Below, piece by piece: positions 14,981 to 43,657 of a DNA stretch of 45,489 nt. Position 1 is the stretch's first letter; each line of letters begins with the position of its first letter. Source of the stretch: [Clostridium] clostridioforme AGR2157. GTDB lineage: Bacteria > Bacillota > Clostridia > Lachnospirales > Lachnospiraceae. The stretch covers positions 1 through 45,489 of the forward strand of contig NZ_AUJR01000040.1 of assembly GCF_000424325.1 (NCBI RefSeq), written 5' to 3'. The position numbers were made by a program, and so were the translations under genes. The notes under the pieces are model-generated. The model was not told the DNA's origin. It worked only from the letters and a program-made list of their open reading frames with translations, and ran no database searches.

Positions 14981-15130
14981 ATGAAGCTGTTAAAAAAGAT
15001 CAAAATGAATCCATCAGTAATGAACCTTTTTGTTATGGCTATTATGGTTTATGCCGCGAACACCCGCTGTGCCTGGATTGGACATCAGCCTAAGATGCCG
15101 GAAGATGTAAGGAATTTCAAGAGGATGTAA
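14981..15130 (+). CDS. agrD: AgrD-like autoinducing peptide precursor
   Basis: A 49-residue peptide with a perfect ribosome binding site (AAGGAGG). The N-terminal half is an amphipathic or hydrophobic leader (KLLKKIKMNPSVMNLFVMAI then MVYAANTR). The core is C-A-W-I-G around Cys30, and the tail is HQPKMPEDVRNFKRM. Aligned by hand on its conserved prolines with Staphylococcus aureus AgrD (core CDFIM, tail DEPEVPKEL), the spacing from Cys to the prolines is identical. That predicts a five-residue thiolactone ring, Cys30 to Gly34, cut after Gly34. The AgrB gene starts 3 bases later. Membership is well supported; the exact mature peptide is inference. Confidence 0.88.
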   Translation: MKLLKKIKMNPSVMNLFVMAIMVYAANTRCAWIGHQPKMPEDVRNFKRM

Positions 15131-15133
15131 CAT

Positions 15134-15706
15134 ATGGAAAAAATGGCAGCTATGCTGGCAGATCGGTTATATGAAGAAAGCAGCTTTCCCGCTGTGTCAT
15201 ACGAGGCTTTTAAGTATGTTATAGAGTTTGCTCTTGAAATGGCGGCTGGCATCCTTGCAAGCGCTATCATAGCCGTTGGATTCAATATGCGGTGGGAAAC
15301 CGCCGCATTCCTTTTGATATTCTGGGTTTTGCGCTCTTATGCCGGCGGAATACATCTGGACAAGTTCAGCCATTGCTTTATTTTCTCTGCACTTGTGATA
15401 GCGGGGACAATGGCACTTGTGAAATACAGTTACGTTCCTTTATGGTTCTCCCACCTTTTGTTTATTGGGGGAGTCGGTGCCTTTATGCTTACGGATCCGG
15501 AGAGTGACAGGAATCGGAAGGTTGATGAAGAGGAAGATGCATACTTCAGGAAAAAACTGCGGCAGTCCCTTTTTGCAATTGCAGTAGTCTATCTATTTTG
15601 CGCGTTTATGCAGAACAGGAAGTACACATTCCTAATCGCCATTACAATAAGTGTTGTCTATGTGCTTATGATACTGGGTAAGGTGAAAAATGCAAAAAAT
15701 AATTAA
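15134..15706 (+). CDS. agrB: AgrB-like peptide-processing membrane protease
   Basis: A 190-residue integral membrane cysteine protease that cuts the AgrD tail and forms the thiolactone. The catalytic pair is visible as His74 and Cys81 in RSYAGGIHLDKFSHCF, with the same six-residue spacing as His77 and Cys84 of S. aureus AgrB. Several spans follow (FIFSALVIAGTMALV, WFSHLLFIGGVGAFML, SLFAIAVVYLFCAF). It starts just after AgrD. Its last 17 bases overlap the start of the VWA-domain gene, so the two are translated from one message. No AgrC sensor or AgrA regulator lies in the window. Confidence 0.92.
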   Translation: MEKMAAMLADRLYEESSFPAVSYEAFKYVIEFALEMAAGILASAIIAVGFNMRWETAAFLLIFWVLRSYAGGIHLDKFSHCFIFSALVIAGTMALVKYSYVPLWFSHLLFIGGVGAFMLTDPESDRNRKVDEEEDAYFRKKLRQSLFAIAVVYLFCAFMQNRKYTFLIAITISVVYVLMILGKVKNAKNN

Positions 15707-17717
15707 ATCTCTTGTGGTGGCCATATGCAGTATCCTACTTATAACGCCAATTTCCATAATAGCTCACGCGGAGGAATACGCCAGTGAAAAAAACGGGCTG
15801 GATGTGATTTTTGTTATGGATTACAGCGGCTCCATGAAATCAAATGACTCGGAACATATTGCTCAGGCTATGGTAAAGGCATTTATTGATACCGTACATA
15901 GTGCCGACATACGGATAGGATTTGTATCCTATAATGACCGTATTCTCTCTTCTGCTTCACCTGTGGAGGTACAAACGGTCGAACAACGTGAAAGACTGAA
16001 ACAGTTAATTGACGGGGTGGGATATTCCGGTAATACCGATATAGGACTGGGCCTGCGTTACGCGGAGGAACTGATTGGACAGGAAAAGGAGCGGAAGAAA
16101 GCAATTGTTCTGATTTCCGATGGCGAATCTGATTTGCAGGGGTCAGAGACCGGACGGTCTTTGCAGAACTCAGAAATGGATATTGATTACGTGTTGGATC
16201 AATGCAGGGAGCAGAATATACCAATCTATACAATCGCCTTTGGAACTTATGATGGAGACGTACAGAGCCTGTCGGAGCTGTCAGAACAAACCGGAGCGCA
16301 AAACTATACGGTGAAAACACCTGAAAACCTTATTGAAATCCTGTATGGTATTTTCACTACGAACATGAACTATAGTATACAGGAAATAACAACGGGTATA
16401 TATTCACAGGGAATGCAGAATATACGGGTGAGGCTGGATGGGTCATATCTGGACGAACTGGATGTGTTGATGATTTCTCCACAGAAGATAGGAAACACTA
16501 TGGTACTGTATGGTGACCGGCAGATTGAGCCGGTGAACTTAAACAATTACGCGGTAGCTAAAATAACAGATGTGGACAGCCATGTAAATGAACTGACTAT
16601 CCAGACCGAAACGCTTAAAGACCAGGAACTGAAGATGTATTTAATCAGTTATCGTGATCTGACTCCTGTTCTGAGCGTTGTTCCGGCTGTGGAGAAAAAT
16701 TCTCCACTATCATATGAAGTCTATTTTAAGGACAAGAATAACACAATTATTTCAGATGAAAACTTTTATGACAACTTTGACTGCGAATTAAACCTGAAAT
16801 ACGATGGCACACAGGCTGAAAGACAGCAGGCGCTTCCTGTAGTTGTCCGTGATGGCGTGATTGCCGGGGAGACAGTGCTGACTGAATCCGGGACTTATTA
16901 TATTAATGGACGCCTGGATGACAGCATGGGAAGCTGCATATTTGGACCGGTTGCGGTAGAGTCCCATAATGGGAAACCGGTGGGTGGATTGCCGGAGCAG
17001 GAATCGTTTGCAATTTTCAGTAAAGAAAAAAAGTATGTGCTGGATGAATACTTTAAAGACCCAAATGGAGATTCTCTCACTTACACTTTACCAGAATCGG
17101 ACAGTCTCTGTGTGACAGCGGAGATATCAGATAGCGTGCTTTCTGTCAAAGCGAGGAAATCGGGGAGGCAGGTGTTGCAGCTGCTGGTTTCTGATGGCGA
17201 GGATGAGATGCTGTATTCGTGGAATGTTACCGTTCCGCCACTATGGCGTACATACTGGTGGGCTGTTCTGTTACTTTGCGCAGCGGCTATAGCAGCACTC
17301 TGGAAGATATTCTATAAGCCAAAGCCGGAGCTTCAGCAGATAGCGGAGCGAAAGGCAGGAAATCGTTTCGCTGGGAAACTTGATGCTTATGTAACGGTGC
17401 AGCCGGAGGATACGGAAGAAATTACACCGCTCACGTTTCCTATGTATAAAATCAAGGACTCCAGGATTTGTTTGGGAAGTCTGATGAAAGAGTATCAGGA
17501 GCTGTCGGACCATCTGGGATTGGAAAATATTTTTTTGATTGCGGATGAAGAACGCAGGATGATACTCTACCATTCAACATGCTCCACAGTTATGTTGGGT
17601 GGAAGCATTGTATGCAGACAGCTTCAGTATAGTGTGCAGTTTGGCGATGTCATCTATATTACATCACCGGACGGGGCATATGAACTGGAACTCCACTATA
17701 TTGCAGTCATTCAATAA
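15690..17717 (+). CDS. Secreted, membrane-anchored VWA-domain protein
   Basis: A 675-residue protein. A signal peptide (SLVVAICSILLITPISIIAH) leads into a von Willebrand A domain at about residues 38-225, with the MIDAS metal site Asp44-x-Ser46-x-Ser48 in FVMDYSGSMK and the later TDIGLG and SDGE elements. The middle 300 residues are beta-rich and probably extracellular. A span at about 518-537 (WWAVLLLCAAAIAALW) is followed by a cytoplasmic tail of about 135 residues that ends VQFGDVIYITSPDGAYELEL, similar in shape to the end of an FHA domain. The topology would link a surface adhesion-like domain to the cytosol. It overlaps AgrB and heads the injection cluster; an anchoring or sensing role is inference. 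Confidence 0.82.
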   Translation: MQKIIKSLVVAICSILLITPISIIAHAEEYASEKNGLDVIFVMDYSGSMKSNDSEHIAQAMVKAFIDTVHSADIRIGFVSYNDRILSSASPVEVQTVEQRERLKQLIDGVGYSGNTDIGLGLRYAEELIGQEKERKKAIVLISDGESDLQGSETGRSLQNSEMDIDYVLDQCREQNIPIYTIAFGTYDGDVQSLSELSEQTGAQNYTVKTPENLIEILYGIFTTNMNYSIQEITTGIYSQGMQNIRVRLDGSYLDELDVLMISPQKIGNTMVLYGDRQIEPVNLNNYAVAKITDVDSHVNELTIQTETLKDQELKMYLISYRDLTPVLSVVPAVEKNSPLSYEVYFKDKNNTIISDENFYDNFDCELNLKYDGTQAERQQALPVVVRDGVIAGETVLTESGTYYINGRLDDSMGSCIFGPVAVESHNGKPVGGLPEQESFAIFSKEKKYVLDEYFKDPNGDSLTYTLPESDSLCVTAEISDSVLSVKARKSGRQVLQLLVSDGEDEMLYSWNVTVPPLWRTYWWAVLLLCAAAIAALWKIFYKPKPELQQIAERKAGNRFAGKLDAYVTVQPEDTEEITPLTFPMYKIKDSRICLGSLMKEYQELSDHLGLENIFLIADEERRMILYHSTCSTVMLGGSIVCRQLQYSVQFGDVIYITSPDGAYELELHYIAVIQ

Positions 17718-17807
17718 AATATCACAGATGTGAAGGGCGCCTACTGGACGGATATGAATCAGGATGGTGCTCTGCTAGCATAAAATAACTAAAAAGGAAG
17801 TATGCCT

Positions 17808-19976
17808 ATGGAAACAATCACACAGACAAACAGAACACTTTTGTTTGCTGAAATCAATCCGGAGCGTTTGAACCTGCTTACTCTAATTGGAGATGTGCGG
17901 GGGAAGAACAGCCTGGATGATGACAAGGTAAAGGAAATTAATGAGGAATTAGTGGTTTCCAGTTTTGAAGAGTTTCTGGAAAAATTCTCACCGGTTGTAT
18001 ATTCCTGGTGTGATGCTACGTCATCAAGTATCCAGTACAGCCTTGTGAAGCCGGAAAACATTCCGGATAATTGCATTACGGAAATTCCGTTAAATGAGTC
18101 AAATGACCTGCTGAATATGTTGATTACCTTATTGGATGCGAAAGGCGCACAGGGAGTGGCCAACGTAGACTTTAAGTTCAGCAACGTTTTGGATATGATT
18201 TCTCCCAAGAAAATCATGGAAGATATCCGCCAGGTCAGAAGAGAAATCCAGTATACTTATGGCAAATATATGGAACTGGACGAAGGGGACCCCAAACGTC
18301 TGGATTTAGGGGATAAACTGAATTATCAGTTTGAACAGGCCAGCCAGAACTACAATAATGTGCTTGCAATGCTTCCTCTTGCGATTGAAGACATTAAAAC
18401 CCGGTTGTTATTGGGCGATGGGGAGACAAAACAGGGCGGCGGAGATTTTAAAGCCGGACTTCTTAGTATGGGCGATGATGGTGAATTGAAAATCCTGGAA
18501 ATGAAACAGGAGACGAGCACCCAACTGGCCGTAGTAGATGATCATATTAACACCAGCCTGATTGAGACATTCAAAGAGGATTACGATGCATTGAATGAAG
18601 ACCCGTCTGATTATGTCAGAGACTTGGTGGTCCGTACGTTCTGTCCGCTTGGTTCCACGATGGAAAGTACTGTGGATAAAGAGGTAGAGGTAAAAAACTA
18701 CAATGGATATCTGGAGTTCTATAAAAAGAGTAAGGATGATTTTGTGAAGGCGGTAAAACCGTTGATCGAAAAAATCCTTGGAGTTAAAACCTTCTTTGAT
18801 CAGTATCAGGTCAAGGAAAAGGGAATGCAGCCTAAACTCCTGATTTCCAATACATCATTGGACATGCTTGTAAAATCCAGTAATCTTCCAAGGCTTTTGA
18901 CATACTTAAATACGACCAATGACAAAAACGAGTTTGAGAATACGATTTGGTTTAGTATTGTTCCGGATGTGGAACTGAATCAAAGCGGCGGCGGAAAGCT
19001 GCAGAGATTACGATTTGCAGGAAATCAGAAAGTGGAGAAACAGGGAACGAATTCCATGGAAAGCCTTGCGACCCTGATGAATGCCCTGGTTCCTTATAAA
19101 ATCACTACTTTCTTTAGTTTTCGTACCGGCGAGGAGACTACGTTTAACTATATCGCAACAGAGGGAATCGGCATCTTTAAAGATAAGTGTACGCCGCTGA
19201 TGAAGCAGGAATACAGCGAGTTTGTTGTCCCGTGCATTCCAAACGCAACTATCATTCCGAAAGACAAATCCGGTTTAATTTTGGATAAACGCATGGTGAT
19301 GGACGAGGACGGAAATGTTGCGTTATCTGAAGAAAAAGAAGACATCATGAAGATGTGGCTGGAAGGTATTTATGTCAATGCGGCTTATGAGGCAGCAGGT
19401 ATTGTGGCAGCATGGCAGTGTCCGGAGTACTTAAAGGAGCGTTTTAACAACACGAACATGGAATATCCCGGAGTCCGGTTTGACGTAGAGGCAGATGATA
19501 ATGCTCTATTGGCAGCAACAAGCATGACAAAGGAGATTTCTGGGTTTACCAATGCCATTAAAAATTCCATTAATCATACCGGCTTTGGATTTGTTTTCTC
19601 TTCAGATAATGCTCAGTATAAAGGCAGGGAGATTAAGAACATTACTGTCTATAAGGCGAGAAACCTGTTGAGCAATGGCAATGAATTTGAGCCAATTTAC
19701 AAGACGCTGGTGGTAACCTATATTGAACGGATGCTTCGTTTCTACAGTGGGGATTTCAAACAGGATAAGATCCTTAAATTCTTCAGCAGCAATCCAAACA
19801 GCCAAAAGAGCCGCTGGGATGCGGACCGTCAGCATGTAAATTCGATCCTGCAGGATGGGGACGAGCTGGACTTTGAGATTGATGAGAAAAATGGAATCTG
19901 CAATGTTCAGGTAACCTTTGCCAATGTAACGAAGAACCTGAAAGTGCAGCTGACGCGGAAAGCAGGGGGAAAATAA
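17808..19976 (+). CDS. Contractile sheath-like protein (TssB/TssC-like)
   Basis: A 722-residue soluble protein. The early part (SFEEFLEKFSPVVYSW, then LNESNDLLNMLITLLDA) recalls the TssB-like segment of type VI sheaths. The C-terminal third (YPGVRFDVEADDNALLAATS; TLVVTYIERMLRFYSGDF; GICNVQVTFANVTKNLKVQL) has the look of a sheath C-terminal domain as in TssC. It is longer than TssC (about 500) and could be a single-chain sheath subunit. The ATG at 17808 is chosen over 17802 because AAGGAAG sits 7 bases before it. The tube genes follow. The call rests on context and pattern, not on an invariant motif; a fold comparison would decide. Confidence 0.6.
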   Translation: METITQTNRTLLFAEINPERLNLLTLIGDVRGKNSLDDDKVKEINEELVVSSFEEFLEKFSPVVYSWCDATSSSIQYSLVKPENIPDNCITEIPLNESNDLLNMLITLLDAKGAQGVANVDFKFSNVLDMISPKKIMEDIRQVRREIQYTYGKYMELDEGDPKRLDLGDKLNYQFEQASQNYNNVLAMLPLAIEDIKTRLLLGDGETKQGGGDFKAGLLSMGDDGELKILEMKQETSTQLAVVDDHINTSLIETFKEDYDALNEDPSDYVRDLVVRTFCPLGSTMESTVDKEVEVKNYNGYLEFYKKSKDDFVKAVKPLIEKILGVKTFFDQYQVKEKGMQPKLLISNTSLDMLVKSSNLPRLLTYLNTTNDKNEFENTIWFSIVPDVELNQSGGGKLQRLRFAGNQKVEKQGTNSMESLATLMNALVPYKITTFFSFRTGEETTFNYIATEGIGIFKDKCTPLMKQEYSEFVVPCIPNATIIPKDKSGLILDKRMVMDEDGNVALSEEKEDIMKMWLEGIYVNAAYEAAGIVAAWQCPEYLKERFNNTNMEYPGVRFDVEADDNALLAATSMTKEISGFTNAIKNSINHTGFGFVFSSDNAQYKGREIKNITVYKARNLLSNGNEFEPIYKTLVVTYIERMLRFYSGDFKQDKILKFFSSNPNSQKSRWDADRQHVNSILQDGDELDFEIDEKNGICNVQVTFANVTKNLKVQLTRKAGGK

Positions 19977-19981
19977 AGACG

Positions 19982-20086
19982 ATGTATGAATTGGTAGAAA
20001 TGATCGTAACAGCAGCATTTTTCGTGGTGGCGGGAATTGCCATATTTAAGGGATTAAAGAAGAAAAAGGACCAAAAGGACAAATAA
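19982..20086 (+). CDS. 34-residue single-span membrane protein
   Basis: ATG at 19982 to TAA at 20086, starting 5 bases after the sheath gene, with AGGGGG upstream. The sequence has one membrane span (MIVTAAFFVVAGIAIF) and a highly charged end (KGLKKKKDQKDK), so the tail should face the cytosol. It fits neatly between the sheath and tube genes with normal spacing. The family is not recognised. A role at the membrane contact of the apparatus is only a guess from position. Confidence 0.6.
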   Translation: MYELVEMIVTAAFFVVAGIAIFKGLKKKKDQKDK

Positions 20087-20107
20087 GATCAATAGGAGGT
20101 AAAAGGA

Positions 20108-20536
20108 ATGGGATTACGTTTAAAAATCGAAGGAAATGAATCAATCAATCTGCCGGAGACCAGCATTATGACGGTAAAATTTGGTGCGGATATTCCGCAT
20201 GATTCCAATGCCAGGTCTACCGATTTGGGCTCCACCGTGCTGATTAAGGGAAAAATACTGGCGGCGGTTGATGGGGAAGCAGCAGATGATACCAGCAAGA
20301 TCGCAAGATGGTCCCTGGTTCCCGCAGAGAATTCGGACTGCTACCGGAAAGTACAGATTGATGTGGTCAATGCGTCCCAGATTGTCCGTCAGATATCGAT
20401 TCCCAATGCATTTGTTGTTGATTACGAGGAGGACTTTACGGATGACACCGGCGCAGGCGTTTTTACCCTTTTGCTTAAACAGAAGAAGGATAAGATGGCC
20501 AATCTGAAATTCGAGGGCGGCTTTAGCGGAGAATAA
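20108..20536 (+). CDS. Hcp/tail-tube-like protein 1
   Basis: A 142-residue protein beginning MGLRLKIEG, beta-rich throughout, with a conserved central block TDLGSTVLIKGKILAAVDGE and an end block NAFVVDYEEDF ... FTLLLKQKKDKM. Size and pattern fit the Hcp or phage tail-tube fold, which stacks in hexameric rings inside the sheath. AGGAGG precedes the start. The second copy at 20846 shares the same blocks (GLKLK/GFKLK start; IPHDSNARSTD; LVPAE-SDCYRK; NAFVVDY), so the two are paralogues. The order sheath, tube, small membrane protein, tube supports the role. No effector domain is attached. Confidence 0.7.
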   Translation: MGLRLKIEGNESINLPETSIMTVKFGADIPHDSNARSTDLGSTVLIKGKILAAVDGEAADDTSKIARWSLVPAENSDCYRKVQIDVVNASQIVRQISIPNAFVVDYEEDFTDDTGAGVFTLLLKQKKDKMANLKFEGGFSGE

Positions 20537-20554: not shown

Positions 20555-20803
20555 ATGTACTATATAATCATGTATGGCTCTGTGCTTTTGGGCATTGTCG
20601 GGCTGCTGATTATGGGAATTGGAATGGTAATCACACCAGATGATAAAGTTAAATTGAAACCGGGACAGGATCGTCAGACTGCCGTTAAAAATATGCGTAA
20701 GCAGGGAAAGATATACATTGCAATCTGTGTAGCTATTATAGCGCTGATTGCCTGTGTAGTTGTTATGACAGGGATTGAGTATATACCTGGAATCGGTTAC
20801 TAA
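20555..20803 (+). CDS. 82-residue two-span membrane protein
   Basis: Two predicted spans, YIIMYGSVLLGIVGLLIMGI near the N-terminus and YIAICVAIIALIACVVVMTG near the C-terminus, joined by a basic loop of about 30 residues (KLKPGQDRQTAVKNMRKQGK). GGGGGAGG precedes the start. The gene lies between the two tube genes. The family is not recognised. With the 34-residue protein it is one of two small membrane proteins among the tube genes, which could help attach the apparatus to the membrane; that is inference. Confidence 0.65.
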   Translation: MYYIIMYGSVLLGIVGLLIMGIGMVITPDDKVKLKPGQDRQTAVKNMRKQGKIYIAICVAIIALIACVVVMTGIEYIPGIGY

Positions 20804-20845
20804 GCCTTAAATGCAAGTAAATCTATTTAGAAAAGGAGTATGATT

Positions 20846-21271
20846 ATGGGATTTAAATTAAAAGTAGAAGGACCATCTACCATTGACCTGGGAACCACCA
20901 TTGTTACAGGAGTGAAATTCAGAACAGATATTCCCCATGACAGCAACGCCCGCTCTACTGATATGGGGAGTACCGTAGAGATTACAGGAAAGATTTTGAC
21001 GGCTGTGGACGGGGATCCCTTTGACAGTACAAGACAGTTGGGACTGTGGGCGCTTGTACCGGCGGAGAAGTCCGACTGCTACCGCAAGGCCAGCATTGAG
21101 GTGATTGCGGCATCACAGGTGGTGCGTAAGTATACATATCCGAACGCTTTCGTAGTTGACTATAAAGAAAACTACGGGGATACGGAAGGCGTGGGAACTT
21201 TTACGCTGATCATCAAGCAGAAAAAGGATAAAATGGCGCAGGTTACTGTAGAAGGCGGATACAGCGCATAA
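20846..21271 (+). CDS. Hcp/tail-tube-like protein 2
   Basis: A 141-residue paralogue of the protein at 20108, beginning MGFKLKVEG. Shared blocks include DIPHDSNARSTDMGSTVEIT, LVPAEKSDCYRKASIEVIAA and FTLIIKQKKDKMAQ. The ATG at 20846 is taken, not the one at 20840, because AGGAG is 7 bases from the former and 1 from the latter, and because the start then matches the first copy. Two tube paralogues may form a mixed tube or serve as a tube proper and an adaptor ring. A terminator-like hairpin follows. Confidence 0.7.
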   Translation: MGFKLKVEGPSTIDLGTTIVTGVKFRTDIPHDSNARSTDMGSTVEITGKILTAVDGDPFDSTRQLGLWALVPAEKSDCYRKASIEVIAASQVVRKYTYPNAFVVDYKENYGDTEGVGTFTLIIKQKKDKMAQVTVEGGYSA

Positions 21272-21387: not shown

Positions 21388-21816
21388 ATGAAAGATTATT
21401 ATAAGATACTTGGGGTATCGGAACAAGCTGCGGAAAAGGATATAAAAGCTGCATATCGAAAACTGGCAAAGCTTTATCATCCAGATGTAGTTAAGGATGA
21501 TGCGGATAAGACACAGCGTATGTATGAGATTCAGGAGGCATATCAGTGCCTTGGAGATGAAGCAAGCCGGAAGGAATACGATAAAGCTCGCGTAAAGACC
21601 TGTTCAAAAGACAGTAATCAGCATGAACAGGAGAACGGCCAACCGGCGCCTGACATGAGTCAGTTTGAACGGTTTTTCGGTTTTCAACCGGGAAAAGGGA
21701 TGGAAACATATCAGGGTAACAACAATGCAGCCAGGAAGCCGGATGGACCAATCAAACCGGAGGAAATGTTTGCAGCCTTTTTTGGCAGACAAAACCATAA
21801 AGGGGACGGGCGTTAG
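21388..21816 (+). CDS. J-domain (DnaJ-like) protein
   Basis: A 142-residue cytosolic protein. Residues 1-66 form a J-domain: DYYKILGVSEQAAEKDIKAA, then YRKLAKLYHPDVV with the HPD motif that stimulates Hsp70 ATPases. The remaining half is low in complexity and polar, and ends PEEMFAAFFGRQNHKGDGR; there is no zinc-finger or client-binding domain of standard DnaJ. A large Hsp70-like ATPase is encoded 3.7 kb downstream in the same cluster, which is the obvious partner. It directly precedes an FHA gene (3 bases). Confidence 0.88.
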   Translation: MKDYYKILGVSEQAAEKDIKAAYRKLAKLYHPDVVKDDADKTQRMYEIQEAYQCLGDEASRKEYDKARVKTCSKDSNQHEQENGQPAPDMSQFERFFGFQPGKGMETYQGNNNAARKPDGPIKPEEMFAAFFGRQNHKGDGR

Positions 21817-21819
21817 AAG

Positions 21820-22377
21820 ATGAAAACAAGAAAAACTATAAAAATAGCAGCAGATATTATCATCTTGTTATGCAGCGGCGTGTTGCTGCTTAGCATTTAC
21901 ACTACAGAAGTGGATAGAAGATGGTTCTGGGCTTTTCTGTGTATTTTGTTCGTGTGCATGATTGGAGCTGTGATAGATTTGACGGTTCAAATTCGTAATA
22001 AACATACAAAATATGAAATGGGTCAACCTACCGATGATACAGCTATACGGCAGTTGATTCTTTTGGATGAGCAAAATAAACCAATCAAATCCTGGGAATT
22101 ATCAGGGAAAATATCGATTGTAATTGGAAAAAAGAATGAAGACGAAGAAGTCGATGTGGATTTGGAGGATTGCGAATACAGCACATTTATTGATCCTCAG
22201 CATGCGGCATTGAATTTTTGTCAGAATTCCTGGTTTGTTGAAGATTTGAATTCACAAAATGGTGTACAAGTCAAGAAAGTGGAAGATGGTGTTTGCTATA
22301 AAGTATTGAACCGTCCGTGCAGAGTGATGCCAGGTGACATTATTTATATTGCAAATACAAAACTTTTGCTGACATAG
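21820..22377 (+). CDS. Membrane-anchored FHA-domain protein
   Basis: A 185-residue protein. Two spans lie at the N-terminus (AADIIILLCSGVLLLSIY; FWAFLCILFVCMIGAVIDL). The cytoplasmic part is an FHA-type beta-sandwich: ISIVIGKKNED, then FIDPQHAALNFCQNSWFVED and LNSQNGVQVKKV, ending MPGDIIYIANTKLLLT. FHA domains bind phosphothreonine. The usual GR...S..H signature is altered (IGKK, PQHAAL), so phosphopeptide binding may be weakened. FHA proteins help trigger assembly in some type VI systems. Its neighbours are the J-protein and another FHA gene. Confidence 0.82.
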   Translation: MKTRKTIKIAADIIILLCSGVLLLSIYTTEVDRRWFWAFLCILFVCMIGAVIDLTVQIRNKHTKYEMGQPTDDTAIRQLILLDEQNKPIKSWELSGKISIVIGKKNEDEEVDVDLEDCEYSTFIDPQHAALNFCQNSWFVEDLNSQNGVQVKKVEDGVCYKVLNRPCRVMPGDIIYIANTKLLLT

Positions 22378-22417: not shown

Positions 22418-22915
22418 ATGAGTTTAACGAGATGTCCGATCGGACATGTGTATAATGCAAGGCGTTACGGGAAGATATGCCCCTATTGTAACATGAAGGT
22501 TCAGGATGAGAGCGCGGCAACAAAGCCATTGGGATTTGAACCGCCGGTGGAACTGCTTCAGGAAGAAGTACGGCCAGTATGCGGATGGCTTGTCTGTATT
22601 GAAGGAGCGCGGATAGGGATGGATTATAAAATTCATGACGGAAAAAATTTTGTGGGCCGCGGGGATGGGATGGATATTCAGATCCTTGGTGACAATACAA
22701 TCAATCGAAAAAACCATACAATAATTGTCTATGATTCAAAAAAAATGAATACGGTTATCCTTCCGGGTGATGCAGCCGGATTGGCCTATTTAAATGAAGA
22801 AGCGGTTTATGTGCCTACAGAATTAAAACCCTATGATACGATTAGTCTGGGGAAAAGTCGGTTTTTATTTGTGCCTTTGTGTGGAACGAACTTTAGTTGG
22901 GATGATGTGAAATGA
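22418..22915 (+). CDS. Zinc-ribbon FHA-domain protein
   Basis: A 165-residue soluble protein. The N-terminus is a small zinc-ribbon-like motif: RCPIGHVYNARRYGKICPYC, with Cys and His ligands. An FHA-like domain follows: YKIHDGKNFVGRGDGMDIQI, then INRKNHTIIVYDSKKM and LKPYDTISLGKSRFLFVPL. The GRG and N-R-K-N-H elements keep more of the FHA signature than the preceding protein does. GGGGAG precedes the start. Its stop overlaps the next start (ATGA), so it is co-translated with the PP2C-like protein. Confidence 0.82.
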   Translation: MSLTRCPIGHVYNARRYGKICPYCNMKVQDESAATKPLGFEPPVELLQEEVRPVCGWLVCIEGARIGMDYKIHDGKNFVGRGDGMDIQILGDNTINRKNHTIIVYDSKKMNTVILPGDAAGLAYLNEEAVYVPTELKPYDTISLGKSRFLFVPLCGTNFSWDDVK

Positions 22916-35364: not shown

Positions 35365-35894
35365 GATTTTTCACAATGGAACAGGACAGAGCCATACAGG
35401 ATATCATTCAATTCCGTGATTTTGATATTGCTGGGCCAAGACATATCTTTTATAAAGAGGATGCAGAGGATATCGATACTTCTGCAACGCTGTATCTGGC
35501 ACCTAAAACAGGTGAGACAGCTCCAGATTATATTCAGTTCCCCGTGCATATGGTCTCTGATACAGTGAAAAAGGTATTAGATATGTATGAAGATGATATG
35601 GTTTTCCGCACGATTGTTCTTACCAGCAAAGAAAATGATACTCTTAGAGTTTACCATCATCTGCTGTTGGAACGTCTGGATGTGTTCTCAGAACAGACGG
35701 AGTTCTATCCAAATGGGAGTATCAAGCGATTGGTATTAGATGCAAAAAAAATCGGAGAGCATAAAGTGTTTATGCTCAATGATAAAAGATTTACAAATCC
35801 TTATGTGAGCCTGGAGGTTGTAGAAAGTTTGCTTAGGAGAGGTGTGATCGGCATCATCTGGAAAGAAGTGGAGGTGGAAGGATGGCCGAATTGA
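35361..35894 (+). CDS. 177-residue adaptor-like protein
   Basis: A soluble protein (MRFFTMEQDRAIQDIIQFRD; VYHHLLLERLDVFSEQTEFY; SLEVVESLLRRGVIGIIWKE). The mid-to-late part recalls the DUF1629/Imm43 type of small proteins found beside toxins, but only weakly. It starts inside the stop of the pentapeptide gene and its end overlaps the PAAR-like gene by 13 bases. The tight coupling suggests that the three products act together, as a loading adaptor or chaperone for the tip or Rhs protein. This is inference. Confidence 0.55.
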   Translation: MRFFTMEQDRAIQDIIQFRDFDIAGPRHIFYKEDAEDIDTSATLYLAPKTGETAPDYIQFPVHMVSDTVKKVLDMYEDDMVFRTIVLTSKENDTLRVYHHLLLERLDVFSEQTEFYPNGSIKRLVLDAKKIGEHKVFMLNDKRFTNPYVSLEVVESLLRRGVIGIIWKEVEVEGWPN

Positions 35895-36385
35895 CTGATA
35901 CATATGTAGTACATGGTGCGCCAGCAACTTGCACTATGGGAATGCGCTTTAGTTATATTGCTCTTCACCGCACTTACGGAGTATTCCTGAGGCTGCAGCC
36001 TCAGATGACAGTCGAGGATTGCATTGGCAATTATCATGTCCTTAATTTTGGTGGTTGCTATAGCATGGAGAATCCAGATACTCAAAGAGAAGCGGAGAAA
36101 GTCCGGGAGGCGGTTGAGGAACAGTGTCCTGATACGTTTCTGGACAGCGTGATGGGATTGTTTTGCAGTAAGAAGAAAAAAAAGCAACAAGAGGTATCTG
36201 AGGATGTTCCTCAGGTAGTAGGAAAATGCACACCGATTATCATAGGTAATCAGGAATGGGATAATGGAAAAGACGGCGTAAAAACAGATGGTAAAACCCC
36301 GCTCCTTGGCGGAGCAAAGCTACGATGTAAATATGGCGGTGAAATAGAGATTGTCCATTCGGGGCAGCAGGAAGCTGGCGGTTAA
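35882..36385 (+). CDS. DUF4280 PAAR-like spike tip protein
   Basis: A 167-residue protein of the DUF4280 type. It begins TYVVHGAPATCTMGMRFSYI, has NFGGCYSMENPD in the middle, GKCTPIIIGNQEWDNG later, and ends TPLLGGAKLRCKYGGEIEIV. Four conserved cysteines and the final gly-rich strands are the family's hallmarks; PAAR-like proteins cap the VgrG trimer. A basic insert of lysines (SKKKKKQQEV) lies at about residues 97-106. The gene lies directly before the VgrG-Rhs fusion, whose spike it would most naturally cap. Confidence 0.85.
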   Translation: MAELTDTYVVHGAPATCTMGMRFSYIALHRTYGVFLRLQPQMTVEDCIGNYHVLNFGGCYSMENPDTQREAEKVREAVEEQCPDTFLDSVMGLFCSKKKKKQQEVSEDVPQVVGKCTPIIIGNQEWDNGKDGVKTDGKTPLLGGAKLRCKYGGEIEIVHSGQQEAGG

Positions 36386-36400: not shown

Positions 36401-39400
36401 ATGAAGCTGGAATTTAAAGAGTTAGAAATTGAATTAGGATTAGATGGGCTTATTCAGGTCGAAGCTTTCCATCTGGTGCAGGGACTTAATGACCATGCAT
36501 TTCTTTCTATAAAGTTCCTTATTGAAGAAGACACATCCGAGGAATTTGTCAATCTGGCCTCTGTGTTTCCAGTTGTCATTAGAGAAAACGCTTATACCAA
36601 AGGGCAGATTATATTCCAGGGCAAAGCGGAGAATGTTTATACAAAAGTAGAAAAAGGGCTTTCATATCTCTATTTTGATGCCTATTCTTACTCTAAGGAA
36701 TGGGATCGAATTGAAAAAAGCAGAAGTTTTTTAGATGGAAGCATGTCCTACATGGATGTGGCGAGAAAGGTACTATCTGATTATAGTCAGGCCGATATAA
36801 AAGACGAAATTACACAAGATGCCCTGATACCGGAGATGCTTTTACAGTATGAGGAAAGTGATTGGGTATTTCTTCGGCGTTTGGCAAGCCATTTTGGAAC
36901 CTATCTGATTGCTGATTGCAGAGATACCTTTGGAAAAGTATATTTTGGAATACCTCATATCAACTATGGAACGGTGCTAAATAATCAGGATTATTCGTTG
37001 GAGAAGGATTTTTTACATTACTCCAAAGTGCTTATGCCCGAGGGAATACTTCCGCAGGAAGCATCGCAGTGGAATATTAAAACGCGTAAATTCCTTTTTA
37101 TGGGGGAAGAACTGAAGATAAATCAGATTTCAGCAGTAGTTACGAAACTTAATATCGAGCTGGAAAAGGGAGAATTGGTATACCGTTATACACTTTCCAG
37201 GAGAGAGGGTATACGCAAGGAAAAAGAGAAAAATCCAAGAATTTTTGGGATGAGTATACCGGCAACTGTAAAGGAAAGGTCGGGTAACCGGGTACGTGTA
37301 CAATTTGACATTGATAAAGCATATGACCCTAATGGCAAGTTTTTTACATATGCAATAGAAAGCAGCAGTTTTTATTGTATGCCAGAAGTTGAAAGCAGGG
37401 TTCATGTTTATTTCCCGGAACACGATGAGCAGAGTGCGATTGCTGTACACGCGATAGGGAGTGGAAGCGGTTCGGGGGGAGGTCAAAATCCCGACAATAA
37501 GAGATTTTCAGATCCAAGTGGAAGTGCCATGGATATGACGCCAGATACTCTTTGCTATGTTCCAAATTCTGATGCAAGCAGTAAGTTATTCATGTCAAAT
37601 GAAGGACAGATCTCTCTAACCGGCTTTGATATTAATATTAAGACACAGAAAGGATTAATGGCAGGCGGTGAAAATCCACCTAAAAACGCTTTTCTTTCCG
37701 GTGGGCAAAAGGTAACTCTTCAAATAGGAGATGGGGCTGACGATGTTATAACAATGGAGGCGGGTACTGACATAACCTCTGCAATGATAGAACATACGGC
37801 AGATTTAAAGCCCGCGGCCCAGCCCTCTGCTGACGAGTTGCTTAATCAGGTGCAGGAGATTGCAGGAAATGATGAGGAAAATAGAAATAACATCAATAAT
37901 GCGGTAACACAACAGTTAGTTTCAAATAAAAAAGCAAGTAAACAAAAATTTTTTAGTGGGGTTGTCAGCATTGCTACGATTATAGGTGGAGTTGCCCTGA
38001 CTATTGCCACTGGAGGTACTGCACTTGCCGTAGTTGGCCCGGTGCTGCTTGCTGCTGCGCCAAAAGCAGCATTTGCAGCGGCAGATATAGCCGAAGGGCT
38101 GGACGGCTACAGCAAAGTGAATGCGCTGGATGCCTCGGCACCTTCCAATTTTATTCGCGATAACCTGATGGGCGGGAATCAGGCATTGTACGATGCCAGT
38201 TCCATGGTGGCCGATATCCTGTTTGATGTTGTATCTGGCAAGGCTATTAAAAACGGTGCCTCAGCCAAGGGACTTACCAAGGTATTGTGCTCAGGTTCTG
38301 AAGCTTCTAATATGGTTGCCCAAGTCGGCGGTACAGTTATTTTTGGAGCCGTCAATGAGTATATGGTAAATGGTTCTGTGAACTGGAAAAACCTGCTTGT
38401 TTATACTGGTGCAGGTATTGTGAAAGGCGTAGCAGGTAATTACCTCACAGATAAGGTCCAGGCTGTTGTGGGTTCTGACAGTAAACTTTTAAATAAGGCT
38501 ATTGGTTTAGGGGTAAATACAACTGTTGGTACAGCAATTGATATTAAAACAAATAATATCCTTGGTGTTGAATATGATCCAATGGATGTACTCACTCAAA
38601 ATTTGATAACCAGTGGTGTTGGGCAGCTTTTTGGAGAGCCGATTGATGTAGTGTCCGGAGCATTTTTAATTACCGCTACTGATTTTATACTTTCAGATAT
38701 TCGTGAACCTCTCAAGATTACGAGAAAATACAGCTCGACCAGTAAACATTCAGGTCTTATGGGGCGTGGATGGAAGTTCATGTTTGAGGGCCGTTTATAT
38801 CGTCATGAGGATAAAATTCATGTGGATCTTGATACGGGGTACCATGTTATTTTTGCATGGGAGGATGGAAAGGCGAAAAACATTACGCCCGGCTGCAGCT
38901 GGTATGAACTGGAAGAGTATGGTGATGAGTGGCGAATTAGGGACCGTAAGAAAAAGCGGGTGTACCGCTATAGTCAGACAGGACTATTGCTCTCAATCAC
39001 AGACCAAAACAGCCAGGTGATTCAGTTTGAATATTATAATGACGTTTTGGACAAGATTACAACCGCTCTTGGCTATGAATTGAAGCTTATCTTGCGTGAC
39101 GGACATCTTATCCAGGTAACAGACGGTCTTGGGCGGACGATGCAATACCGGTATGAAAATGGCCTTTTATCTGATGTAATACATATGGATCAGGGCATTA
39201 CCCACTATGAGTATGATGGGAATGGTTATTTGATTAAAGCGGTAGACCAGGCAAAAGTGACATACCTGGAAAACCAGTATGACGATAGAGGGCGTGTTGT
39301 CCTCCAGACCTTGGCTAATGGGGATACTTATGAGGCTGAGTACATTGATGAAGAACGCCAGGTGAGGGTATACAGCAGCATTGGTGATAAAACAGTGCTT

Positions 39401-42400
39401 TATTGCTATGGGAAAGAGTGTCAGATTCTTTCTATGAGTTATCAAGACGGTACGGAAACACTCTTTGATTACAATGAAGCCGGATACAGGATACAGGAAA
39501 TCAACCGTTTGGGACAGAAAACCAGATGGAGTTATGATGAAATTGGCCGTATGACTTCGGAGGAGTCTGCCAGTGGTCTTATTAACGAATACGTTTATGA
39601 TGAAAAGGATGATTTAAAAGAAGAAAAAGACAATTCCGGCAGGTATATACGATATTTTTACGATGAAAATCACAACCTGATTGAAACAAATGAAAAAGTG
39701 TCCCGTAATGGAACCACAATACAACAGATATATCAGTATGACAGGAAAGGGCGCCTGATTCAAAAAACAGATGCCTGTGACGCTGCTATAACATATACCT
39801 ATGAGGATAAATGTGGGAAACCATCTGTAGTGAGATTTGCAGATGGACAAGAAGTACGTTACGAATATGATGCCCTTGGGCGTCAGATGGCTCTGGAGGA
39901 TGACTGTGGCCGGGTTGAGTATGCGTATAATGCAAAGAATTACCGCACTATGGTACGGGATGGAGAAGGAAATGAGTCCCATTATATGTATGATGGAATG
40001 GGGCGTCTTCTTGCCATGTATATGCCGAAGGCATGGAAGGTACGCAAAAATGAGTACATCTACAAATATGATTTTCTGGACCGTCTCATTGATACGATTA
40101 AACCGGATGGAAGCCACGAGCGGCAGATGCGGGATGGGGAAGGCAATATTTTAAAGAAAGTCCATCCCAATGCGTATGATGCTCTTGGGGATGATGGCGA
40201 AGGAATCCGGTATGAGTATGACAGCGATGGCAACAATATCCGCATCCGTTATCCGGATGGGGGCTGCGAGAGGATTTTTTATGACGCAGAGGGGAGTCGG
40301 GTGAAGCATGTCCTTCCAGAATACTATGATCCAGCCATGGACGATGGTAAAGGGACTGCTTATGAATATGATTCAGCCGGCCGACTCACAAAAATCATAC
40401 TGCCAGATGGAAATATAGAGGCTGAATATACCTATGATCCAATCGGCAATATGATTTCCAGGACGGATCCCCTTGGGAATACCAGCTATTACGATTATGA
40501 CTTACGTGGTAATCTGATTCAGAGCCTGAGTCCGTCAAAAGAGGAGGACGGAGACACTCTCTACCAGAAGATTACATACTCCTATGACGGGAATGGGAAT
40601 AAGATAAAGGAGCACAGGCGCAGCGGATACTGGGATAAAGACGGGAACCTGCTGCGTGAGGACGGAACCGGGTTATGCCTTACGTTTACCTATGACTGCC
40701 GGAGCCGTCTGATACGGGTAGAAGATGGGCTTGGCGCTGTCATAAAATATAGGTATGATGTGCGGGGGAACCGGATCTATGAAGAAAAAGCCATAAATGC
40801 AGAGGTGTGCCAGGTTGTTCATTTTGTATATAATAAAGCAGGGCGCCTGATAGAGCGGCGTGAGGAACTGAACAGCGGCCTGGAGCCCATGGCAGGAGAA
40901 CATAAAATCGCTGTCACAACCTATGGATATGATGAGAATGGAAACCGTATCCTGACCCAGACCCCGGAAGGGTACCGCATCACCCGGGAATATGACACCC
41001 TGGACCGGTTGGTCTTGGAGCGGGTAGAGGATAAGCATAATGGTATTGACCGTTCCGTTAGGGTGAGTTATGACCATGCGGGGAACATCACGAAGCTGGC
41101 CCGCCAGGGCAGGAACGGGCAGCCATGGGAAATCAGCTATGATTACGATTTAAAAGACAGGGTTATCCATTCCAACGATTATTTGGGTCCGGTGTTCCAG
41201 TACGAATATGATAAAAATGACCGCCTCTTGAAGGAAACATTATCCGGGACAGAACTAAACCGGTTCTACGCCTATACTTATGACTGCAAGGGAAACCTGG
41301 TGACGGAGACTGACAGTACCGGGACCCTGCAGGAGAAGCACAGCTACCGGGCAGATGGAAAGCTGACAGAGAGCCAGTTCGCAGACGGGAATGAGCTTAT
41401 ATATTCTTACGGCGTGAATGGACAAGAACGTGAAATCCAAACCGCCAGGAGCCGTCAGAAGAACCAGGCAGCCCAGGAATATACCTACGACGCCAGGGGA
41501 AGGATTACCGGGATTCGGGACGGGAACCAGAACCGGACCGGCTATCGCATGGATTCCTGGGGCAGGGTGCATCAGATTGACACGGCAGAGGGCGGGGAGG
41601 AGAAATACACCTATGATTATGCCGGGCATGTCACCAGCACCACAGATGCCAATGGCGGCGTCATCACGTACCGTTACAACAGCCAGGGGAAGGTCTGCGA
41701 GATCATCGATCAGGAGGGCAACAGCGAGACATTCCGCTATGACCGGGAAGGACGCATGGTGTTCCATGTAGACCGGAACGGGAACCAGGTGCGTACCACT
41801 TACAATGTGGATGGGAACCCGGTACTGGAACACGCCTGCGATTATCTGGGAGAAAATGAAGTGACCCGCTCCTGGGAATATGATGACATCGGGAACGTAA
41901 AGAAAGCGATAGCTGGTGGATTCTGCTACACGTATGAATACCGGCCGGACGGGAAGCTGGTGAGAAAATCATCTTCTGGACGGACGCTTGTTTCCTGCAC
42001 CTATCAGGCGGATAAGAAGTTGAAGTCGTTAACAGATGTGTCAGGAAAGACGGTATATTATAGTTATGATACTCTGGGACACTTGGAGCAGATCTGTGAT
42101 GAGGAAGGGACTGAAATCGCCCGTTACAGCCATACAGCTGGCGGAAAGCTGAAAGAAATCCTCCATGGAAATGGGATGCATACGTTCTATGAGTATGATA
42201 CGGATGATAATATCATAAGGTTGACGCTCAAGAACCAGGAGGGTACTATTTTCTCTGATTTCCGGTATGAGTACGACCTGAATGGGAACCGGACATTAAA
42301 ATCAGGAAACTGTATCCTGCCGGGAGAAGAAAGTCTGAAGGAGCAGATGACCTGCTACCAGTATGACAGCATGAACCGTCTGGTTGAAGAGCGGTATGAC

Positions 42401-43657
42401 AATGCGCCTGTCAGGTACAGATATGATCGTTGTGGAAACCGACTGGAAAAGGTAGATATAACTGGAAAAGTAGCGTATAATTATAATTGTAAAAATCAGT
42501 TAACCAGCAGCAAAAATAACACAGAAACCATAGATTACCGGTATGATTTACAAGGGAATGTACTGGAAGAGGTTGGTTTCCTTGAAAAGACGGAATACCA
42601 TTACAATACCTTTAACCAACAAACGGCGGTACTGATGAAGGATGGTGGTATCCAGGAAAACCGGTATGATGCAGAGTACCTGCGTGCCGAAGTGTCTGAG
42701 AACGGCCACAGATCCAGGTTACTGTATTATAATGGGGAGTTACTGGCGGAGTCCGAACCAGATGAAACAGTGACAAGCCGTTATATCCTGGGTTATGGTG
42801 TGGCGGCAGGCTGGCAGAATGGAAGGGAGGGATATCATTCTTATCATCTGGACGAGCAGAACAGCACGGCATATATTACAGATTTAGGTCAGAGGATAGA
42901 AAACAGTTATCAGTATGATGCTTTTGGCGTAATCCGTGGTAAAAATGAAAATATCAATAATCGGATCTTATATACAGGGCAGCAGTATGACCAAGCGACA
43001 GGGCAGTATTATCTAAGAGCCAGGTATTATAACCCGGTTGTGGGAAGGTTCTTGCAGGAAGATGTGTACCGGGGTGACGGGTTAAACTTATATGCCTACT
43101 GTAAAAATAATCCTGTGCTTTATTATGATCCAAGTGGTTGTGTTGTTCGTAACCCTAATGCTGAGCTAAGAGACGACGGAAATTATAATTATCCAGATGG
43201 AAGCGTAAGAGATGGATCGGGCCATTTTATGGGTAACTCAGGAACCAAACCGGGTGATATGGCAGTTGAGAAAGCATCCAAATATTACCAGGATAATGGT
43301 TATAATGTACTTGGAAAAGAAGTTTCTGTTCGAACAGCAGATGGAGAACTTAGACGATATGATTTGGCAGTTCAAAAAAATGAGCCATATGCTCCGGTTA
43401 TTGGTGTGGAGGTTAAAGGGGATAGTGCTGCAAGAGATAAACGTCAAAGAGCAAAAGATAGCCAGCTGATGGATAGTGGAGGATTTGATACAACTCAAGG
43501 ATCATATGACAGAACAAATGTAAGGCGAATAGATTCTGTGGAAGTAGTGCATGTTCAAGATGGGCAAGTTAAGCCGCCTGATCCAAATGAAGTGTCACAA
43601 TATGATACGGATGGAAATAAAAAGAAAAAGAGTTGTAAAGGTGAATCAGATAGTTAG
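36401..43657 (+). CDS. VgrG-Rhs fusion toxin with C-terminal nuclease
   Basis: A 2418-residue protein. Residues 1-365 are VgrG-like: LLQYEESDWVFLRRLASHF at about 146, then an OB domain at 285-360. A hydrophobic stretch lies at about 520-567 (VALTIATGGTALAVVGPVLL). A DUF6531-type entry follows at about 745 (EPIDVVSGAFLITATDF), and then about 1400 residues of YD repeats form the Rhs shell. The core ends YYDPSGC with Asp2243. The variable tip (about 2247-2418) holds Asp2321 (RYDLAV) and Glu2337-Val-Lys2339 (GVEVKGD), a PD-(D/E)XK nuclease pattern. AGGAGG precedes the start. It is predicted to carry its own spike, protect its toxin in the shell and release it in the target. Confidence 0.85.
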   Translation: MKLEFKELEIELGLDGLIQVEAFHLVQGLNDHAFLSIKFLIEEDTSEEFVNLASVFPVVIRENAYTKGQIIFQGKAENVYTKVEKGLSYLYFDAYSYSKEWDRIEKSRSFLDGSMSYMDVARKVLSDYSQADIKDEITQDALIPEMLLQYEESDWVFLRRLASHFGTYLIADCRDTFGKVYFGIPHINYGTVLNNQDYSLEKDFLHYSKVLMPEGILPQEASQWNIKTRKFLFMGEELKINQISAVVTKLNIELEKGELVYRYTLSRREGIRKEKEKNPRIFGMSIPATVKERSGNRVRVQFDIDKAYDPNGKFFTYAIESSSFYCMPEVESRVHVYFPEHDEQSAIAVHAIGSGSGSGGGQNPDNKRFSDPSGSAMDMTPDTLCYVPNSDASSKLFMSNEGQISLTGFDINIKTQKGLMAGGENPPKNAFLSGGQKVTLQIGDGADDVITMEAGTDITSAMIEHTADLKPAAQPSADELLNQVQEIAGNDEENRNNINNAVTQQLVSNKKASKQKFFSGVVSIATIIGGVALTIATGGTALAVVGPVLLAAAPKAAFAAADIAEGLDGYSKVNALDASAPSNFIRDNLMGGNQALYDASSMVADILFDVVSGKAIKNGASAKGLTKVLCSGSEASNMVAQVGGTVIFGAVNEYMVNGSVNWKNLLVYTGAGIVKGVAGNYLTDKVQAVVGSDSKLLNKAIGLGVNTTVGTAIDIKTNNILGVEYDPMDVLTQNLITSGVGQLFGEPIDVVSGAFLITATDFILSDIREPLKITRKYSSTSKHSGLMGRGWKFMFEGRLYRHEDKIHVDLDTGYHVIFAWEDGKAKNITPGCSWYELEEYGDEWRIRDRKKKRVYRYSQTGLLLSITDQNSQVIQFEYYNDVLDKITTALGYELKLILRDGHLIQVTDGLGRTMQYRYENGLLSDVIHMDQGITHYEYDGNGYLIKAVDQAKVTYLENQYDDRGRVVLQTLANGDTYEAEYIDEERQVRVYSSIGDKTVLYCYGKECQILSMSYQDGTETLFDYNEAGYRIQEINRLGQKTRWSYDEIGRMTSEESASGLINEYVYDEKDDLKEEKDNSGRYIRYFYDENHNLIETNEKVSRNGTTIQQIYQYDRKGRLIQKTDACDAAITYTYEDKCGKPSVVRFADGQEVRYEYDALGRQMALEDDCGRVEYAYNAKNYRTMVRDGEGNESHYMYDGMGRLLAMYMPKAWKVRKNEYIYKYDFLDRLIDTIKPDGSHERQMRDGEGNILKKVHPNAYDALGDDGEGIRYEYDSDGNNIRIRYPDGGCERIFYDAEGSRVKHVLPEYYDPAMDDGKGTAYEYDSAGRLTKIILPDGNIEAEYTYDPIGNMISRTDPLGNTSYYDYDLRGNLIQSLSPSKEEDGDTLYQKITYSYDGNGNKIKEHRRSGYWDKDGNLLREDGTGLCLTFTYDCRSRLIRVEDGLGAVIKYRYDVRGNRIYEEKAINAEVCQVVHFVYNKAGRLIERREELNSGLEPMAGEHKIAVTTYGYDENGNRILTQTPEGYRITREYDTLDRLVLERVEDKHNGIDRSVRVSYDHAGNITKLARQGRNGQPWEISYDYDLKDRVIHSNDYLGPVFQYEYDKNDRLLKETLSGTELNRFYAYTYDCKGNLVTETDSTGTLQEKHSYRADGKLTESQFADGNELIYSYGVNGQEREIQTARSRQKNQAAQEYTYDARGRITGIRDGNQNRTGYRMDSWGRVHQIDTAEGGEEKYTYDYAGHVTSTTDANGGVITYRYNSQGKVCEIIDQEGNSETFRYDREGRMVFHVDRNGNQVRTTYNVDGNPVLEHACDYLGENEVTRSWEYDDIGNVKKAIAGGFCYTYEYRPDGKLVRKSSSGRTLVSCTYQADKKLKSLTDVSGKTVYYSYDTLGHLEQICDEEGTEIARYSHTAGGKLKEILHGNGMHTFYEYDTDDNIIRLTLKNQEGTIFSDFRYEYDLNGNRTLKSGNCILPGEESLKEQMTCYQYDSMNRLVEERYDNAPVRYRYDRCGNRLEKVDITGKVAYNYNCKNQLTSSKNNTETIDYRYDLQGNVLEEVGFLEKTEYHYNTFNQQTAVLMKDGGIQENRYDAEYLRAEVSENGHRSRLLYYNGELLAESEPDETVTSRYILGYGVAAGWQNGREGYHSYHLDEQNSTAYITDLGQRIENSYQYDAFGVIRGKNENINNRILYTGQQYDQATGQYYLRARYYNPVVGRFLQEDVYRGDGLNLYAYCKNNPVLYYDPSGCVVRNPNAELRDDGNYNYPDGSVRDGSGHFMGNSGTKPGDMAVEKASKYYQDNGYNVLGKEVSVRTADGELRRYDLAVQKNEPYAPVIGVEVKGDSAARDKRQRAKDSQLMDSGGFDTTQGSYDRTNVRRIDSVEVVHVQDGQVKPPDPNEVSQYDTDGNKKKKSCKGESDS

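Follow-up and report, generated by a model that had tools for sequence, protein, structure and literature searches.

The 45,489-nucleotide stretch of [Clostridium] clostridioforme AGR2157 analysed here (contig NZ_AUJR01000040.1, "the window") carries a row of 21 genes, all on the + strand between positions 15690 and 43657 and separated by overlaps or gaps of at most 131 bases, which probably encode a contractile injection system (CIS) that resembles type VI, is anchored in the cell and represents a new class, undescribed in the literature searched. An original prediction, made from the letters of the DNA, had placed open reading frames (ORFs) at these positions, on a single strand and nearly contiguous, and had proposed an undescribed CIS subtype. 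The ORFs are where it put them, and of the proposed subtype the tube, the spike, the tip, a probable baseplate protein, the Rhs toxin and the conserved order have held up, whereas the identity of the sheath, and hence contraction, is unsettled. We favour a contractile injector because the VgrG and Hcp profiles match those of the Bacteroidota type VI secretion system (T6SS), because one protein resembles baseplate chains in its modelled fold and because DUF4280 and Rhs genes accompany them; the adjacency of the sheath candidate to Hcp, the conservation of both, the nearly constant Hsp70-like gene, kinases in or near the operons of relatives, the swapping of Rhs tails and the distribution of the cluster are further grounds for this view.

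Two hallmarks of the T6SS, an Hcp/TssD tube and a VgrG spike with a PAAR-like tip, are both predicted in the cluster. The original prediction had named two Hcp-like tubes, and the genes at 20108-20536 and 20840-21271, whose products are 60% identical, match Pfam TssD below its cut-off (0.0053 and 0.0077, respectively). The sole PDB entry matched by a family profile of 15 members is 6bdc, an Hcp1 (E 0.019) which we take to be of Bacteroides origin, and a larger Hcp profile (157 sequences) aligned by hhalign with six Bacteroidota TssD sequences at P 1.2e-5 (probability 81%), with the same set pooled with Pseudomonadota Hcp at P 2.3e-4 (44%), and not at all with Pseudomonadota Hcp alone (0.68). 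With the VgrG family profile the match is 1e-28 to the Bacteroidota and 4e-11 to the Pseudomonadota VgrG; the two members of the family here are VgrG 1 (31374-32966; Pfam Phage_GPD 5.4e-9, Phage_base_V 3.5e-7) and VgrG 2 (32978-34384; Phage_GPD 1.3e-9), and the candidate tip is a DUF4280 protein (35882-36385; Pfam 7.8e-19). Tube, spike and tip are in this way identified by computation from sequence profiles. On a Megamonas funiformis plasmid (L170:3147-4387) a VWA gene has beside it a lone Hcp relative of about 203 aa, 38% identical and carrying an extension; the other cluster genes are absent there.

The baseplate is likely represented by b429, a 429-aa protein (27991-29280) whose AlphaFold model, built from 20 sequences, has a predicted local distance difference test score (pLDDT) of 82.6. 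When this model was compared by Foldseek with the PDB and a viral structure library, the first four PDB matches were all baseplate chains. Chain I of the TssK-TssF-TssG complex 6n38 came first (E 7.6e-4, probability 0.94), followed by two chains of the Streptomyces CIS 9gtp baseplate (E 2.1e-3 and 3.6e-3) and then by 6n38 chain H (E 0.013); the template modelling (TM) scores of chains I and H were 0.31 and 0.33. The listing leaves the 6n38 chains unnamed, and the lengths (532 and 528 residues) of H and I and their number suggest the TssF pair. No match in the viral structure library reached 0.001, a gp6-like baseplate wedge protein at rank 5 standing at 0.089. We regard b429 as a likely, rather than proven, TssF-type baseplate protein; in one Fusobacteriota genome (G966) four b429-like genes were seen. 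Of the genes that follow, b237 (29259-29972) is a TssG candidate by position, with no credible PDB relative, and b256 (29988-30758), which lies near the Hsp70-like or the Hcp gene, has no PDB relative; neither found a match in profile comparisons with TssG and TssK, so that the identification of b256 as TssK, suggested by eye, was given no support. The PPR-protein matches returned from the PDB for one alignment (A4) in the b237 search look like artefacts, no stretch passing by itself, and b218 (30776-31432) has no credible family.

The conservation and wide occurrence of the cluster are real. Among 50 loci retrieved through similarity to the sheath candidate, a 724-aa protein (17802-19976), the proportion of testable ones that have a given gene is 48/50 for Hcp, 47/49 for each of the two FHA genes, 46/47 for the Hsp70-like gene, 41/49 for DnaJ, 39/46 for b429 and 40/46 for VWA. 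In 31 operons from whole genomes, picked for diversity and overlapping the 50 loci through G692, G693, G694 and G696, family profiles detected Hcp 31 times, the Hsp70-like protein 29, b237 26, VgrG 25, b429 22, b256 19, FHA 17, PP2Cb 15, DnaJ 12 and VWA 10 times, counts that are affected by the early ends of several contigs. Conservation of gene order elsewhere, which the original prediction had proposed as a check, is found: the same order recurs in most of the 50 loci, and in 31/31 of the whole-genome operons Hcp is the next ORF (of at least 60 aa) after the sheath-like gene. The core order is sheath-Hcp-VgrG-b429-b237-Hsp70-like-b256. A compact type, ordered sheath-Hcp-VgrG-(b429)-b237-Hsp70 and with FHA and PP2C undetected, comprises 12 tips of the midpoint-rooted sheath tree, which together with two duplicate records form one clade (support 1.0); its Hsp70-like proteins score low (16-43 bits, checked against Pfam at locus L149), and an Imm11-like p177 gene precedes the sheath gene in 6 of 13 of its operons.

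The sheath-like family occurs in 15 of 299 Lachnospiraceae and 13 of 398 Bacillota genomes (the present genome being in both counts), in 42 of 189 genomes from a further Bacillota family and in 34 of 98 Fusobacteriota genomes. The query alignment behind the last two counts had 10 rows, one of which was a stray that adds a single residue. Some of the matches are fragmentary, namely G777 and the split G717 in the further Bacillota family and, among Fusobacteriota, G925 and G951. The system had been predicted to belong to a Gram-positive, which the Lachnospiraceae and other Bacillota bear out, but it is not confined to Gram-positives. In the genome scan the closest named relative is [Clostridium] citroniae WAL-17108 (filed in the taxonomy as Enterocloster citroniae, Lachnospiraceae), with a sheath-like protein 98% identical. 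The 15 Fusobacteriota tips of the tree are not monophyletic, their common ancestor covering 95 of 109, and this scatter hints at transfer. Plasmid records (72,556) and phage records (50,697) contained no sheath match, and spread of the whole system by plasmids or phages was set aside, plasmids having yielded an orphan spike island (described below) and the solo Hcp gene.

That the 724-aa protein is the sheath is a call made from position, conservation and elimination: its length fits TssB and TssC combined, its gene is followed by that of Hcp in all 31 whole-genome operons, and its conservation is like that of Hcp. Among the 12 genes measured the most conserved are the sheath-like gene (median identity 85%) and the two Hcp genes (83 and 85%), against 51% for b429 and 47% for b237. 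The family profile aligns the stretch VDFKFSNVLDMISP with a TssB stretch that ends in FSP, and residues 1-260 compared with Pseudomonadota TssB gave P 0.025, a score reached by none of 60 column shuffles, as was also the case with the pooled TssB set. A fusion of TssB and TssC, suggested by eye, was not upheld, since TssB came third of 23 reference profiles. We therefore treat the protein as a presumed sheath and the fusion as an unproven candidate.

Several results weigh against a contractile injector of this kind, and most of them concern the sheath. The 724-aa protein gave chance-level matches alone in Pfam and NCBIfam, scanned both singly and as 16 members, and nothing above chance in PHROGs (with the window sequence) or in two profile searches of the PDB; the best PDB "match", 42 residues of a chain entitled non-capsid protein NS-1 (E 0.011), was put down to chance. 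Its AlphaFold model is poor (pLDDT 38, from 19 alignment rows), so that structure prediction, another proposed check, served b429 and failed here. For residues 1-260, shuffled columns scored as high in 9 of 60 trials with Bacteroidota TssB alone and in 14-48 of 60 with TssC, and for the whole protein TssB (P 0.066) ranked behind pooled TssE (0.047) and pooled TssF (0.057). The similarity to TssB is weak and compatible with chance, no TssB or TssC profile matched anywhere in the genome (E<=10), and the sequence does not identify the 724-aa protein as a sheath; the "sheath-like" label of the original prediction finds no support in family, PDB or fold results. Retrieval of the 50 loci through sheath similarity moreover raises the identity figure of the sheath, not that of Hcp. 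As to the baseplate, the TM-scores of b429 do not exceed 0.33, a single match lies below 0.001, and sequence profiles gave no link to TssF; no gp25 family match was obtained in any of the 21 genes (E<=1), and profile comparisons with TssE were non-significant, the best being b218 (P 0.02) and p177 (P 0.034). In three small genomes of Streptobacillus type (G692, which contains the Streptobacillus notomytis locus L050 of the Fusobacteriota, G970 and G958) no b429 is detectable genome-wide and no VgrG lies nearby; the phosphate motif is absent from their Hsp70-like genes in the frames read, so that decay or strong divergence of these systems is possible. In G543 and G769 b429 is also undetected genome-wide, being too divergent there for the alignment used. 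Finally, the role given below to the Hsp70-like protein is one that we infer.

The toxin of the cluster is a VgrG-Rhs protein (36401-43657; Pfam RHS_repeat 2.6e-79, DUF6531, Phage_GPD 7e-4) whose N-terminal region is VgrG-like (28% identical to VgrG 2 over 360 residues). Residues 1-2246 of its 2418 are 88% and 63% identical to those of relatives in G693 and G694, where the alignments stop at 2246 and the tails differ, and at least four Rhs fragments lie downstream in G693. Computation thus reveals a polymorphism of conserved core, exchanged C-terminal domain and orphan cassettes by which the protein is predicted to be a polymorphic toxin; an E-x-K nuclease-like motif was noted by eye. It is preceded by a pentapeptide-repeat protein (34393-35364; Pfam 8.8e-16), presumably an effector-loading part, and by p177 (35361-35894), a relative of an Imm11 family protein in that its L149 homologue matches Imm11 (4.6e-5), while the window protein itself does not. 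Among relatives, two examples of the toxin-like gene that stands before p177 match DUF4280 (1.9e-6 and 1.8e-7), that of L149 does not, and the AHH nuclease matches of this gene (22.2, 20.9 and 17.8 bits) all fall below the Pfam cut-off of 22.3. On a Paenibacillus polymyxa plasmid (L119:11220-20378) an orphan spike island holds a pentapeptide gene, two unknown genes, VgrG, DUF4280, a second VgrG, a further pentapeptide gene and a nuclease fragment, and resembles the orphan VgrG islands that occur in T6SS. In a Fusobacteriota genome (G938; L159/L160) about four to five tandem pairs of a lipoprotein-like gene and a gene for 213-233 aa stand between Hcp and the VgrG-toxin gene, perhaps as an immunity array.

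Profile matches in Pfam or NCBIfam bear out the J-protein, FHA and PP2C genes of the original prediction, as they do both VgrG genes, DUF4280 and Rhs, and its Hsp70-like ATPase is recovered from motifs. This 824-aa Hsp70/actin-like core protein (25508-27982) has both phosphate motifs (VIDFGSSNT and DCGGGTTD) and a weak DnaK profile match (E 0.0036); at L149 the gene in the same position matches Pfam HSP70 at 7.2e-50, and that locus has three HSP70 genes, two at 7.2e-50 and 5.4e-34 and one, fused to VWA, at 3.6e-86. Membership of the Hsp70 superfamily is accordingly supported by computation. A 75-residue stretch of the protein also matches a phage-defence candidate model, PDC-M61B (E 5.6e-6). 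The J-domain protein (21388-21816; Pfam DnaJ 5.5e-22, with the HPD motif) lies nearby and no AAA+ gene is found in the cluster, so that a role for the Hsp70-like ATPase in tail recycling or assembly is a natural guess, and the Hsp70/J pair may stand in for ClpV. In the literature, Hsp70, J-domain, kinase, PP2C and VWA genes have been placed in other conflict systems (PMC7159879), in a text that does not contain the word VgrG.

The remaining conserved genes encode a VWA protein (15690-17717; Pfam 4.9e-19) with a hydrophobic N-terminus and one C-terminal membrane segment by hydropathy; an FHA protein with two hydrophobic N-terminal segments (21820-22377; Pfam 1.9e-8); an FHA-like protein with weak matches (22418-22915; Yop-YscD_cpl 3.8e-5, FHA 0.0056) and a median identity of 79%; a PP2C-like phosphatase with a hydrophobic N-terminus (22912-23772; Pfam 1.6e-5); and a protein in which PP2C is joined through a membrane segment at about residues 252-270 to a weakly matched TPR region (23753-25486; NCBIfam Stp1 7e-16). 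The FHA and PP2C genes are reminiscent of the threonine phosphorylation pathway of T6SS. No kinase lies in the cluster of the window and three protein-kinase genes lie elsewhere in the genome; relatives have a Ser/Thr kinase inside the operon (Pkinase 3.1e-39 in L161, 5.1e-12 in L167) or about 8 kb downstream (2.3e-34 in L081). The original prediction had seen neither a TssJLM membrane complex nor ClpV. Agreement is genome-wide for TssM (no IcmF-related match, E<=1) and extends over the cluster genes for TssJ, TssL and AAA+ families, none of which was found there, the rest of the genome having been searched for neither TssJ and TssL nor ClpV.

If these parts are put together, the 724-aa protein would polymerise into a sheath that surrounds the Hcp tube and sits on a baseplate containing the TssF-like protein, with VgrG and DUF4280 forming the tip, and VgrG-Rhs and DUF4280 toxins with interchangeable C-termini would be fired into neighbouring bacteria. 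The VWA, FHA and PP2C proteins with membrane segments would replace the TssJLM anchor and gate assembly through threonine phosphorylation, and the Hsp70-like ATPase and J-protein would assemble the machine or dismantle the contracted sheath, which in T6SS is the job of ClpV. The identity of the sheath, its contraction, the anchor, the killing of neighbours and the parts played by Hsp70/J and phosphorylation are proposals of this model. In its fuller form, to which we give somewhat less than even credence, the cluster would represent a separate CIS class of Bacillota and Fusobacteriota, firing from monoderm and diderm cells alike, with a tail built or recycled by Hsp70/J in place of a ClpV-type AAA+ unfoldase and a one-protein sheath unlike those known.

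The device might instead assemble free in the cytoplasm or be released, as in the Streptomyces CIS or extracellular CIS (eCIS), and take effect when the producer itself lyses or once outside the cell, with no anchoring for contact killing, a reading that we consider unlikely. The Streptomyces system is likewise a CIS in a Gram-positive and its baseplate chains are the second and third fold matches of b429; the present cluster differs in its Hcp, VgrG, DUF4280 and Rhs set and in its Hsp70 and phosphatase genes. An AAA+ ATPase, a tape measure, LysM and fibre genes are typical of eCIS, and none is among the Pfam matches of the cluster; the missing AAA+, gp25 and tail-fibre families, the T6SS affinity of Hcp and VgrG, the hydrophobic segments of the VWA, first FHA and both PP2C proteins, and the presence of the system in Fusobacteriota all argue against a free device. 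Fusobacteriota are diderm. Somewhat less probable again is a non-contractile Hcp-VgrG export device driven by the Hsp70 machine, with the 724-aa protein as its scaffold or secretion platform. The lack of detected sheath similarity speaks for such a device, whereas b429 has the fold matches of a part that belongs to contractile baseplates, and the 724-aa gene adjoins Hcp and is conserved like it. That the cluster is the decayed remnant of a prophage tail or a tailocin, retained by chance, is very improbable: VgrG and Hcp do share tail ancestry, and VgrG 2 matches a tail-protein PHROG (1.4e-4), but the phage records hold no sheath match, no PHROG sheath, tape-measure or fibre match was obtained among 10 proteins scanned, and conservation and order are strong across genera and phyla.

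The cell-anchored injector that we prefer differs from each system with which it was compared. It shares with the Bacteroidota T6SS (subtype iii) the best matches of its Hcp and VgrG profiles, whereas ClpV, gp25/TssE, TssN, TssO and TssR families were not found in the cluster, the 724-aa protein could not be aligned to the Bacteroidota TssB and TssC used, and Hsp70/J, VWA, FHA and PP2C genes are present. With the Pseudomonadota T6SS (subtype i) it has in common FHA and PP2C, a kinase in some relatives, the fold matches of b429 to 6n38 and the Rhs and VgrG effectors; TssM, TssB and TssC profiles, however, match nothing in the genome and AAA+ nothing in the cluster. A haloarchaeal CIS of T6SS mode (PMC11566945) also fires on contact outside the Gram-negatives, a property proposed for the present system, but is described with a cis1-16 gene set including an ATPase, in a text that contains neither of the words Hsp70 and Hcp. 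The same source places the closest Cis11 relatives in Bacillota, and ordinary cis-type clusters were therefore already known there.

Closest in the literature is perhaps the "unknown phage-like translocation system" of Firmicutes (PMC8651086), in which DUF4280 (PAAR_H2) stands beside Phage_GPD genes; that study found no conserved T6SS or eCIS genes round them and left the machinery unnamed, and the present operon is a candidate for it. A table in PMC3482391 names firmicutes among taxa with T6SS- and PVC-type toxins, the gene cluster not being given in the portion at hand, and clpV-annotated genes of Fusobacterium nucleatum are reported in PMC12940168. The system is not described in the consulted parts of PMC8651079, PMC5014421, PMC10066040 and PMC13288982, nor did we recognise a description in the literature searched as a whole, outside which preprints and most subscription journals fall. 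None of the models in the libraries scanned matches the sheath-like protein or b429, b237 and b256 above chance, which would account for the system being overlooked in surveys. T6SS has mostly been portrayed as a weapon of Gram-negatives, and PMC10066040 treats firing through a thick bacterial wall as an open question. The operon is a concrete candidate for such an injector, and a widespread one, seen in gut Lachnospiraceae and in roughly one in three of the Fusobacteriota genomes that were searched; if the model is right, a tail cycle driven by Hsp70 would be a new mechanism, and the DUF4280 and Rhs toxins of Gram-positives would gain a delivery route.

The flanks of the cluster hold neighbouring, non-core genes. 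Upstream (14981-15706) lie a 49-aa AgrD-like peptide (14981-15130), named from its size and its position directly before agrB, and the peptide-processing membrane protein AgrB (15134-15706; Pfam 7.4e-26), both on the + strand like the genes downstream. The original prediction had the cluster headed by AgrBD; the pair is there but is not a conserved head, AgrB being upstream in 11 of 46 testable relatives, which leaves quorum control possible in some lineages. Of its "two tiny membrane proteins", one is probably the AgrD-like peptide. Between the Hcp genes lies the gene of an 82-aa protein with two hydrophobic segments by hydropathy (20555-20803). Downstream (43796-45268) follow a possible immunity gene, so called from position and without a family (43796-44827), and a truncated Rhs fragment (44921-45268) that agrees with Rhs residues 1555-1627 at 92% identity over 73 aa. 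In a rabbit metagenome bin (L044:5314-11145) the sheath-like frame continues into Rhs, and in the same set (L049:9935-11224) a 429-aa sheath fragment is closely followed by the end of an Hsp70-like gene; each may be a deletion derivative or an assembly chimera. Downstream of a compact-type cluster (L090:20586-24293, in G068), three GTPase-like genes, recognised by eye, stand in tandem.

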